Shown: piece after piece, positions 12,045-14,952 of the stretch | How the letters are laid out: every line of letters starts with the position of its first letter | Numbering within the stretch: the stretch's first letter is position 1 | Assembly: GCF_005869845.1 (NCBI RefSeq) | Contig: NZ_VAWF01000001.1 | Location: 434,001-498,000, forward strand | DNA: 64,000 nt | Direction: 5' to 3' | Origin: Fodinibius saliphilus | GTDB lineage: Bacteria; Bacteroidota; Rhodothermia; Balneolales; Balneolaceae | The notes under the pieces: generated by a model | What the model saw: the letters and a program-made list of their open reading frames with translations, nothing else | Told to the model about the DNA's origin: nothing | Database searches by the model: none | Translations under genes and position numbers: made by a program

Positions 12045-13340
12045 ATGTTCAGAACGCTATTAGTTAGTATCATAACAAGCTTTGTGCTTCTAGGTTGTAA
12101 CACTGGTAAAACTGAGAAATCACAAGTAAAAAAGGAAAAGCAGAACCAACAGGTTGATTCTGCTAATGTTGTTAAACGAGATATGTATGGGACCCCTGTT
12201 GATAGTTTCCAGGTTGCTGATCATGAAATTAAGCGTAATGAAAGTCTTTATGTGATACTGGATAAATTCGATTTTACTCCTAAAGAGATTCACTCTTTTA
12301 CACAGAAAGCACGTAATGTACTGGATTTCAATAATCTGCGCCCTGGCCAACGTTATCGAACGTATGCTTCAGTTGACGATAATGGGATTTCACGATTGGT
12401 ATGGCAACCCAACAAGCTTGAGTATGTGGTTTTTGACTGGGCTAAAGACTCATTGAAAGCTTACCGGGCTGCACATCCGCTTAAAAAAAAGAAATCCGTG
12501 GCATCGGGAGAAGTTTCCAGCTCGTTGTATCAGACAATAAGTGATAAAGGAGCAAGTCCGCTTCTTGCTTATAAGATGGCAGATATTTTTGCATGGCAAA
12601 TAAACTTTTTTGGATTGCGTGAAGGAGATTCATTTAACGTCTTATATGAAAAGCAGTTTATAGGAGATGACTTTTGGAGTGTTGGGGATGTACTGGCTGC
12701 TACATTTAACCATCGGGGAGAGATATACCAGGCATACAAATATAGCAATGGGGAAGTAGAGGGTTACTTTACTAATGAGGGCAAGAGTGTTGAGAAAGCA
12801 CTGCTTAAGGCTCCATTTAAGTTTAGTCAACGTATAAGTTCTCCATTTTCACGTAATCGTTATCATCCTATATTGAAAAAGCGTCGACCTCACTATGGTA
12901 TTGATTATGCTGCACCGCGAGGGACACCGGTATTATCGGTAGGAGATGGGATAGTTACTAAAGCAGAATATGGTAATGGCAGTGGATATATTGTCAAAAT
13001 AGAACACAATGGAGTTTACCAAACTGCGTACATGCATTTGCGCGGTTTTGCAGATGGTATCCATCGGGGGGCTAAAGTAGAACAGGGACAGGTTATTGCT
13101 TATGTAGGAAATACAGGCATGTCTACTGGTCCTCATCTTCACTACTCATTATACAAAAACAATCAACCTGTGAATGCACTGGGTATAGATTTACCATCTT
13201 CTGAATCAATTCCGGATAGCTTGATGGAAGATTTTAAAAAAGTGAGAGATTCACTCAATAAGCAGTTAGAAAGTAAAAATTCTAATTCTGCCGGTGATAC
13301 GGAAAATGAATCTATGATTACGTATGTTAATAATCATTAG
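12045..13340 (+). CDS. M23-family murein peptidase lipoprotein
   Basis: A 431-residue lipoprotein: the signal ends in the lipobox VLLGC with acylated Cys18. Residues 60-150 resemble the LysM-like/OapA-type N-domain of Csd3/MepM peptidases (HEIKRNESLYVILDKF, then NNLRPGQRYR). The C-terminal LytM/M23 domain has the zinc ligands in HYGIDYAAPRGTP and HLHYSLYKN, with a further catalytic His in TAYMHLRGF. These enzymes cut peptidoglycan cross-links (DD-endopeptidase) in the periplasm. It is divergent from the BatD-like gene and converges on the DUF58 gene, the two stop codons sharing TTAG (13337-13340). It therefore sits inside an otherwise minus-strand Bat cluster. Confidence 0.91.
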   Translation: MFRTLLVSIITSFVLLGCNTGKTEKSQVKKEKQNQQVDSANVVKRDMYGTPVDSFQVADHEIKRNESLYVILDKFDFTPKEIHSFTQKARNVLDFNNLRPGQRYRTYASVDDNGISRLVWQPNKLEYVVFDWAKDSLKAYRAAHPLKKKKSVASGEVSSSLYQTISDKGASPLLAYKMADIFAWQINFFGLREGDSFNVLYEKQFIGDDFWSVGDVLAATFNHRGEIYQAYKYSNGEVEGYFTNEGKSVEKALLKAPFKFSQRISSPFSRNRYHPILKKRRPHYGIDYAAPRGTPVLSVGDGIVTKAEYGNGSGYIVKIEHNGVYQTAYMHLRGFADGIHRGAKVEQGQVIAYVGNTGMSTGPHLHYSLYKNNQPVNALGIDLPSSESIPDSLMEDFKKVRDSLNKQLESKNSNSAGDTENESMITYVNNH

Positions 13341-14212
13341 TAACGGTGAACACGCCGGCGGAAGAATGACATGAGCGGACGAATGTAGGAAGTGTTGGTA
13401 TTCAGTTCTATAGTATCAATTTTCATTCTTAGAAAACGATCACGTAAGTTTTCTTTCTGTATTTTACGTTTTTTAAGGTATTCTTTCCGCACTTTCTCGC
13501 TCGATGTATCAACTAATACCTCTTCTCCGGTTTCTGCATCTTTTAGTGGCATCAGCCCTAATTCGGGAAGTTCATCTTCAAACTCATCATTAATGAATAT
13601 GTTTACCAAGTCATGTTTTTGACTGGTAATCTTCATCTGCTTGTCATAGTTCTCATCTTGGAAATCGCTGGCAAAAATCACAATAGCTCTGCGATTAAGA
13701 AGCCGGTTAACATAAGAGAGAGCCTCACTAAGATCAGTACCGGTACTTTCAGGTTCAGTTGTTAGCAGTTCTCGGATGAGTCGCAGTACGTGTTTACGGC
13801 CTTTTTTAGGAGGGATTACCTTTTCAACTTTATCAGTAAAAAGGATGAGGCCTACCTTATCACCATTCTTAATAGCACTAAAAGCTAGTACAGCACAAAT
13901 TTCGATAGATAATTCCATCTTACTTTGACCTTTACTGCCAAATATTCCACTGGGAGAGATGTCTACGCACAGCATCAGCGTTTGTTCGCGTTCCTCCTCA
14001 AACTGTTTAATAAAAGGATCTCCAGTACGGGCCGTGACATTCCAGTCGATTTGCCGAATATCATCTCCATAATTATACTCCCGAACTTCAGAGAACTCCA
14101 TGCCTCGGCCTTTAAAAGCTGATTGATATTCACCACCAAGTATATTGTTAACCATCCCCTTGGTACGAATTTCAATTTTTCGGACTTTTTTTAAAATCTC
14201 TTTGGAAATCAT
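13337..14212 (-). CDS. DUF58 domain protein of the Bat/MoxR cluster
   Basis: A 291-residue soluble DUF58 protein. The family signature GRGMEFSEVREYNYGDDIRQIDWNVTART appears at residues 35-63. It is followed by a VWA-like fold with the partial MIDAS LCVDISPSG and FASDFQDEN. In related genomes this gene is followed directly by the batA/batD-type genes and preceded by a MoxR AAA+ ATPase that acts on the VWA proteins as a chaperone. Here the M23 peptidase separates it from the others and no moxR is visible upstream in the window. Its start is followed upstream by a 470-bp gene-free region. Confidence 0.9.
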   Translation of the reverse strand: MISKEILKKVRKIEIRTKGMVNNILGGEYQSAFKGRGMEFSEVREYNYGDDIRQIDWNVTARTGDPFIKQFEEEREQTLMLCVDISPSGIFGSKGQSKMELSIEICAVLAFSAIKNGDKVGLILFTDKVEKVIPPKKGRKHVLRLIRELLTTEPESTGTDLSEALSYVNRLLNRRAIVIFASDFQDENYDKQMKITSQKHDLVNIFINDEFEDELPELGLMPLKDAETGEEVLVDTSSEKVRKEYLKKRKIQKENLRDRFLRMKIDTIELNTNTSYIRPLMSFFRRRVHRY

Positions 14213-14292
14213 ACTGTAATAATTGTCTTCTGTTGATAGCGCTTAAGGATAATGTAATTAGGAAGCATTTAAAAGTATATAATTCACCCAAA

Positions 14293-14301
14293 GGGGGGGG
14301 G
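14293..14301. repeat. Run of nine G
   Basis: Nine consecutive guanines on the plus strand, 81 bp upstream of the DUF58 start, between genes. Runs of this length are prone to slippage. It is followed by a short TGTGC...GCACA inverted repeat (14306-14322). Confidence 0.9.
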
Positions 14302-14409
14302 TGCATTGTGCTGGGCTCGCACAGCAGGATTACACAAGTGGTTCTATTTTTTTAATGACCCTCTGATTATTTGATAAGAACGGTGTATAGGCCTGGAAGA
14401 TATGTATAG

Positions 14410-14533
14410 GTTGCAATAATGTGTTTTGAAAAAATGCAACAATTCCCGATCTTGTGAGGCGCCCTGAAACGGGTGTCTCTCTTGATGAATAGTCAGGGCC
14501 TCACAACTGATACTTGTGAGGCCTTATTTTTTT
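14410..14533 (+). ncRNA. Candidate structured RNA with alternative hairpins ending in a terminator
   Basis: On the plus strand there is first a GTTGCA/TGCAAC hairpin (14410-14415 with 14435-14440). Then come three segments that can pair in two mutually exclusive ways. Segment 1 (14452-14467) pairs with segment 2 (14493-14506) over 14 bp with a 2-base bulge. Alternatively the end of segment 2 (14497-14506) pairs with segment 3 (14514-14523) over 10 bp, followed by TTATTTTTTT. The second form is a standard intrinsic terminator and the first would prevent it. This is either a transcription-attenuation leader or a small stable RNA. I do not recognise a known riboswitch or the SRP RNA, tmRNA or RNase P cores. 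The wider gap 14213-14682 has no gene. Confidence 0.5.
14497..14533 (+). terminator. Intrinsic terminator closing the candidate RNA
   Basis: A 10-bp perfect stem GGCCTCACAA / TTGTGAGGCC (14497-14506 with 14514-14523), a 7-base loop, and seven T at 14527-14533 after TTA. There is no plus-strand gene upstream for it to terminate, since DUF58 runs the other way. This suggests a non-coding transcript or a leader. Confidence 0.75.
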
Positions 14534-14627
14534 CCACCATTGCAATGATACTTAGTCCTCCCTTCCAGAAGCAATTACTAGATATCTATTAACAGTTTAA
14601 TAACATTTTGGTAACGGTTTAGTCAGA

Positions 14628-14675
14628 TATAATGCTTGTATTTAGATATGCAATCACTTTATAGATACAAGCATT
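14628..14675 (+). promoter_or_regulatory. TATAAT box with an 11-bp inverted repeat, probable promoter/operator of the winged-helix gene
   Basis: AATGCTTGTAT (14631-14641) and its exact inverse ATACAAGCATT (14665-14675) are separated by 23 bp and end 7 bp before the start codon at 14683. The first arm overlaps a TATAAT (14628-14633). The layout suits an operator bound by a dimeric regulator, plausibly the winged-helix protein itself, although the repeat could also fold in the mRNA and hide the start site. Confidence 0.55.
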
Positions 14676-14682
14676 TCAGCAG

Positions 14683-14952
14683 ATGATAATTGGTAGTGAA
14701 TTCAGTAAAAAATACCAAGAGTTACTTAAAGAAGTTGGCACTCATGCTAATAATGATACTTCACACAGCATTGCTGTAAAAGATATTAATGCTAATTTAA
14801 ATCTGGATCGCACGGAAATTAAAAATGTGCTAGAGTATCTAGAGGGGTTAGGGTACATTGAGACAAAAACGATAGGGGGCCCCTTATTATATGGCCATAT
14901 CACAATTACGGCTTCAGGACTATCTAAATGTGAAGAGCTTACAAAAAGCTAA
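14683..14952 (+). CDS. Small winged-helix DNA-binding protein (hypothetical)
   Basis: A protein of 89 residues with no membrane segment. The middle reads as a helix-turn-helix (IAVKDINANLNLDRTEIKNVLEYLEGLGYIE), followed by a wing-like hairpin (TKTIGGPLLYGHITIT) and a final helix ASGLSKCEEL. This is the general MarR/PadR/ArsR-like winged-helix layout. It could be a transcription regulator of its own gene, given the inverted repeat directly upstream. I do not recognise a named family. It is transcribed toward ald, 118 bp away, without a visible terminator in between. Confidence 0.7.
   Translation: MIIGSEFSKKYQELLKEVGTHANNDTSHSIAVKDINANLNLDRTEIKNVLEYLEGLGYIETKTIGGPLLYGHITITASGLSKCEELTKS

Follow-up and report, generated by a model that had tools for sequence, protein, structure and literature searches.

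The plus-strand segment 14459-14533 of the window (the whole stretch of 64,000 nucleotides of Fodinibius saliphilus DNA analysed here) is very probably a stand-alone small RNA gene of about 75 nt, one copy of an uncatalogued multi-copy family. On balance, we consider that it encodes an sRNA of the Balneolales which would most likely act in trans, through base-pairing of an exposed core. The identification as a small RNA gene is well supported by comparison of related loci, which shows the family itself, how it is structured and conserved, how many copies there are and where they lie.

An earlier note on this DNA had described two competing pairings within 14410-14533, and direct reading of the sequence confirms both: TCAGGGCCTCACAA (14493-14506) can pair with TTGTGAGGCGCCCTGA (14452-14467) through 7+7 pairs separated by a 2-nt bulge, and GGCCTCACAA (14497-14506) forms a perfect helix of 10 bp with TTGTGAGGCC (14514-14523), followed by TTATTTTTTT at 14524-14533. 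The plus strand of this region folds at -44.7 kcal/mol (z -5.63), which none of 200 shuffles equalled; the minus strand reaches a z of -2.83, equalled by two of 200 shuffles. A DNA search finds most of the region repeated elsewhere in the same genome. The neighbourhood is also as the note had it: there is no plus-strand gene upstream, the nearest ORF on that side coding for a DUF58 protein on the minus strand (13337-14212), and a small winged-helix-like ORF of 89 aa lies downstream, outside the RNA, on the plus strand (14683-14952). The top Pfam match of the latter is TrmB, at 19.9 bits, below the curated cut-off of 25.6. Ahead of it, plus-strand positions 14589-14642 form a separately conserved block in the alignment of three orthologues, probably the promoter or regulatory region of the winged-helix gene. 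An intergenic run of nine Gs is found upstream of the RNA, at 14293-14301.

A covariance model of the family matches positions 14456-14533 (G000:C1:448456-448533 in genome coordinates) with 80.7 bits. Two further genomes of the genus carry orthologues of the window copy with the same neighbours (L009 and L010), and in the alignment of the three Fodinibius sequences 14459-14533 is identical. The onset of this identity agrees approximately with the start near 14459 that we infer from the position of a candidate promoter. This includes TTTTG at 14424-14428, which we take to be the -33 element of a Bacteroidota-type promoter; it is the counterpart of a TTG at -35 to -33 in the canonical copies described below, and is also present in L009 and, judged by eye, in L010. 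The candidate -7 element, CGATCTTG at 14447-14454, is a weak match to TAnnTTTG, but is placed like the AT-rich box of the canonical copies and has counterparts in both orthologues (CGATTTTG in L009 and GATATTAC in L010). The upstream part of the supposed 'antiterminator' arm, TTGTGAG at 14452-14458, overlaps this candidate promoter and start. From 14459 onwards, the plus-strand transcript would consist of a 5' hairpin, GCGCCC(TGAAAC)GGGTGT (14459-14476), indicated by folding and by stem counts over the family; an almost invariant single-stranded core, TCTCTCTTGATGAATAGT (14476-14493), indicated by column invariance and unpaired probability; a terminator hairpin (14495-14525) with the loop CTGATAC at 14507-14513, indicated by stem changes and loop conservation; and the conserved U tract (14524-14533).

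The copies share a common plan of a short 5' hairpin, the core UCUCUCUUGAUGAAUAGU, a terminator hairpin and a U tract, which we analysed on alignments of subsets of copies (21, 50 and 29 rows). In the alignment of 50 copies, 11 of the 12 pairs of the terminator stem show changes on both sides, and in the structure as a whole both sides have changed in 149 cells, compared with 36 on average for the shuffles. Sliding the partner columns out of register destroys the pairing, and RNAalifold likewise recovers the terminator stem. Concerning the 5' hairpin, 34 of the 39 distinct 5' segments form a stem of at least 5 bp that ends at the core, compared with 15% of shuffles, and about 16 different stem sequences occur in these segments. 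In the alignment count, 84.8% of its cells are paired and both-side changes occur in one of five pairs, this hairpin varying so strongly among paralogues that an alignment suits it poorly. RNAalifold proposes in its place CGUC/GAUG, a helix of 4 bp in the core region; because this helix lies in invariant sequence, variation neither supports nor refutes it. Two copies (L028 and L123) are devoid of the 5' hairpin, the core coming after a -7-like box.

The core comprises 15 invariant columns in the 50 copies, and has a mean unpaired probability of 0.70 (minimum 0.48), against 0.09 for the 5' arm of the terminator. The terminator loop stays YUGAUAC-like while the stem varies: GATA occurs in 40 of 81 core-bearing loops versus 5 of 119 other terminator-like hairpins, in a count of related, non-independent sequences whose background is every locus then collected, hairpin-less matches included. 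A possible pseudoknot, in which CAAG of the canonical loop would pair with CUUG of the core, is seen by eye in canonical copies only and was set aside; paralogues keep the core and not the loop. Ten pattern matches with neither hairpin nor terminator, which look like chance occurrences (L058, L062, L069, L073, L079, L086, L104, L115, L125 and L133), were left out of the alignments and of the neighbour, start-codon, 5'-stem and alternative-helix counts. L146 appears to be a chance match of the same kind; it was left out of the 5'-stem and alternative-helix counts, and is retained in the neighbour count and among the 790 ORFs considered below.

We found copies of the family in all 12 analysed genomes of the genus. 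The genome of F. saliphilus itself has four clear copies with E-values of 4.6e-9 or better in the covariance-model search (the window copy at G000:C1:448456-448533, plus C3:20219-20293, C4:298093-298171 and C2:563214-563285), and three additional model matches with E-values of 0.015-0.72. Several copies per genome share a common unpaired segment, each with its own terminator. Among 296 sampled genomes of the phylum, matches are present in 43, of which 42 belong to the same order and one (G089) lies outside it with a weak score of 33 bits; no genome of the order appears among the misses listed, which are all but 233, and many other genera possess one strong copy only. A model of the core plus terminator matches 68 of 69 genomes of the Balneolales, including two with weak matches only (G328 and G329), and the missing genome is 73% complete. 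Finally, an exact scan of GTDB genomes with 17 letters of the core gave at least 117 stretches, which among the matches listed are mostly from Balneola, Fodinibius/Aliifodinibius, Gracilimonas, Rhodohalobacter and MAGs of Balneolaceae or Balneolales.

One type of copy, which we call canonical and which has the 5' end GCGCUCAAGUAGCG (or ACGC...), lies upstream of, and in the same direction as, genes with STAS and HATPase_c_2 domains that resemble RsbV and RsbW (Pfam, one example of each). Of 135 canonical loci, a set in which some places are counted twice from two collections and some loci are incomplete, 123 have the STAS gene as their first or second downstream ORF. Upstream of the RNA, 102 distinct canonical copies display the TTG at -35 to -33 and an AT-rich box at -12 to -7 from the hairpin. 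After the RNA, a motif resembling those of ECF promoters (G.A.C, 8-20 nt, CGTA) is found in 57 of 98 copies, as compared with 0.4% of shuffles, and the rsbV/rsbW-like genes therefore probably have their own start. In these copies (e.g. L208, and L002 on the reverse strand) the motif begins within or directly past the U tract, ahead of the rsbV/rsbW-like genes. We also considered the rsbV leader as a target of the RNA, and by eye could not find any conserved complementary site.

A search of the 64-kb window against Rfam 15, which the earlier note had called for, found no family at or above its gathering score, and the same holds for 15 loci that contain copies; four hits from a permissive scan of 14212-14690 are all below gathering scores. 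6S-Flavo, also a small structured RNA of Bacteroidota, was matched neither at gathering score nor among these four hits. We could not find any small-RNA literature naming Fodinibius or Balneolaeota. Within the literature, Rfam 15 and the phage and plasmid searches reported below, the family appears to be undescribed, and it brings a highly conserved small RNA family to an order for which we found no such literature. It is near-universal in the order, fixed before rsbV/rsbW, expanded in some genera, and has its module in tRNA-Lys trailers; these four features offer a concrete and testable way into Hfq-free post-transcriptional control.

In the mechanism that we favour, with moderate confidence, a Bacteroidota-type promoter would produce an RNA of about 75 nt beginning at the 5' hairpin, and the terminator hairpin with its U tract would define the 3' end. 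Both ends would be shielded by the hairpins while the almost invariant UCUCUCUUGAUGAAUAGU stays accessible, so that this pyrimidine-rich core could pair in trans with purine-rich sites in mRNAs. Paralogues with different promoters would pass different signals to common targets, as sibling sRNAs.

Such an anatomy, in which a hairpin protects the 5' end, an invariant segment is exposed, a terminator follows and the copies have different promoters, resembles that of FopS/GibS, a multicopy sRNA family of Bacteroides thetaiotaomicron (PMC11697453). According to that source, FopS begins with its single-stranded seed, has the RRM protein RbpB as partner, and was deposited in Rfam (PMC11697453). In contrast, the Balneolales RNAs mostly begin with a 5' hairpin, RRM_1 was not found in the F. 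saliphilus genome, and the family has no match in Rfam 15, a release that may not contain FopS. Sibling sRNAs such as LhrC of Listeria are similar in having near-identical copies with one common conserved unpaired segment, but differ in sequence and phylum, and the targets of the Balneolales family are candidates only.

Concerning these candidates, the exact complement of the core, ATCAAGAGAGA, gives 70 matches in 12 genomes against 7 for the reversed control, many of them being the RNA genes themselves; with up to three mismatches there are 278 against 93, RNA genes included. The arrangement TCAAGAGAGA-N0-10-ATG occurs in 67 of 92 genomes, some of these occurrences being RNA genes and tRNA trailers, versus 30 of 92 for CTAAGAGAGA. 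Two 7-mers of the core complement, ATTCATC and TCATCAA, take ranks 6 and 7 among 210 words of the same composition in the surroundings of 790 start codons, these being ranks alone with no significance value, and other 7-mers of the core complement are unremarkable there (CATCAAG 147 of 420, TCAAGAG 61 of 420). Several exact complement matches lie 0-8 nt before the start codons of prophage tail- or terminase-like genes and of a transposase, and the same placement is seen for two four-helix-bundle-like proteins and a TssD-like protein (products judged from translations). We also took 40 hand-chosen sites where TCAAGAGAGA comes just before an ATG at short spacing: an ORF of at least 50 aa follows at 11 of them, versus 2 of 20 control sites. 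A region that looks prophage-like by eye (L318-L320, G009:C1, ~1383-1411 kb) has purine runs like AAGAGAGA before many start codons, and the 790 ORFs of the family loci have no such signal. Given these runs before many prophage genes, and the 11 of 40 against 2 of 20, we claim no target.

The main rival is a tentative one, namely that the core and the YUGAUAC-loop hairpin form a module for a putative RNA-binding protein, in which case the copies would either titrate this protein, in the manner of CsrB, or mark or stabilise RNAs. It draws on the fact that weaker matches of the model are tRNA 3' trailers, in which UCUCUCUUGA precedes a terminator whose loop is of the CUGAUAC or UUGAUC type. The trailer module comes after tRNA-Lys(UUU) at 13 loci from six genera and after tRNA-Val(UAC) at one, and a related sequence comes after tRNA-Leu(CAA) at one locus, counts that concern selected matches and are no census (L193, L194, L197, L200, L202-L204, L237-L242, L251 and L256). 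L201 resembles these loci, and its tRNA is cut. The tRNA-Lys trailer pattern matched none of the 12 genomes of the genus, where presence cannot be judged from this pattern. RNAs from tRNA 3' external transcribed spacers are a known class, acting as sponges of sRNAs, and are similar in that part of the family module lies in tRNA 3' trailers; however, the trailer has the core's own letters and not their complement, so that it would share targets or proteins with the family rather than sponge it.

Under the protein-binding reading, the tRNA-Lys trailers would belong to the same circuit as the small RNAs. The loop that remains constant under a changing stem, with the GATA bias given above, and the tRNA trailers suit this reading as well as or better than base-pairing; the core is invariant across the whole order, and mRNA sites are, at 11 of 40 against 2 of 20, unconfirmed. 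However, the trailer copies retain only UCUCUCUUGA of the core, and neither Hfq nor RRM_1 was found in the F. saliphilus genome: PF17209 (Hfq) is absent, in a search that was positive in 5 of 14 control genomes, and so is PF00076 (RRM_1), positive in 2 of 14 controls, one of them a Bacteroides. Both absences count against the base-pairing reading as well. A more specific and rather doubtful version is that UCUCUCUUGAUGAAUAGU and the YUGAUAC-loop terminator are one module read by a putative global RNA-binding protein, both on the sRNAs and on tRNA-Lys(UUU) trailers. If true, a single RNA circuit would connect the supply of tRNA with the partner-switch response of RsbV/RsbW, since the dedicated sRNAs with this module are nearly always located beside rsbV/rsbW.

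It is quite unlikely that the family amounts to no more than a conserved terminator or 3'-end module within longer transcripts such as 3' UTRs and tRNA operons, with no function as a free RNA. The occurrence of the core-terminator module after tRNA genes, and of some type-D paralogues 52-67 nt past a co-directional ORF, would agree with this, but promoter-like boxes lie immediately ahead of the canonical copies, the 5' hairpin is kept as a structure, and the window copy has no plus-strand gene upstream.

Similarly, we now regard as very unlikely the interpretation originally given to the window copy, that of an attenuator whose terminator and antiterminator govern the winged-helix gene. What stands from the earlier note is the small, undescribed regulatory RNA, in view of a conserved, structured, multi-copy family with no match in Rfam 15, and what does not is the attenuator with mutually exclusive hairpins. 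Both pairings are indeed present in the sequence, a nascent RNA from 14410 or 14452 ending at 14512 does pair the upstream arm when folded, and the downstream gene is co-directional at the three orthologous loci. However, the arm 14452-14458 falls outside the identical block, immediately before it, and reads TTGTGGG in one orthologue, where a G-U keeps the pairing, and TTACTGA in the other, where the pairing is lost. Over the family, helices of at least 8 bp that join the terminator arm to the 45 nt preceding the core are present in 8 of 125 distinct members, versus 7 of 125 with shuffled upstream sequence. The covariation that the note had proposed to look for is found in the terminator stem; pairing of upstream sequence with the terminator arm is at shuffle level. 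In the full RNA, the terminator fold is better by 6.3-9.3 kcal/mol with each of four start sites, and the winged-helix gene has an upstream conserved block of its own. Moreover, the next gene is co-directional for the window and canonical copies but not at ten type-D loci and at L030 and L060, where the next ORF is convergent, 18-76 nt downstream, and these paralogues therefore cannot be leaders. If transcription were to begin at 14452 or 14410, a kinetic switch might conceivably operate, though in the window copy alone.

A mobile or selfish repeat element would account for multiple copies per genome in varied contexts, but is extremely unlikely given that hairpin, stem and promoter differ among copies with pairing retained, that the canonical locus is syntenic, and that we found no similar sequence in phage or plasmid records. 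Eight pattern matches on viral contigs were taken as chance after reading their sequences; one of the viral-contig loci considered (L263) has a hairpin-like sequence past the core, but apparently lies, by eye, inside an ORF.

Beside the stand-alone RNA family that we favour, two other sequences were observed among the collected loci. In five genomes of family f51 (L243, L246, L247, L248 and L249), another conserved sequence, GTGCAAATGGGGTAATAGCCGTCTGTAGATGATAAACAAGCACC, stands before a terminator, and four of these loci have a tRNA-Met on the other strand; it is possibly another small RNA. Two genomes of one genus (L244 and L245) have a segment CTCTCTCTCATAGCTAAATATCTCTCCTTGATTTAG ahead of a terminator, which may be a distant relative of the family or a look-alike.
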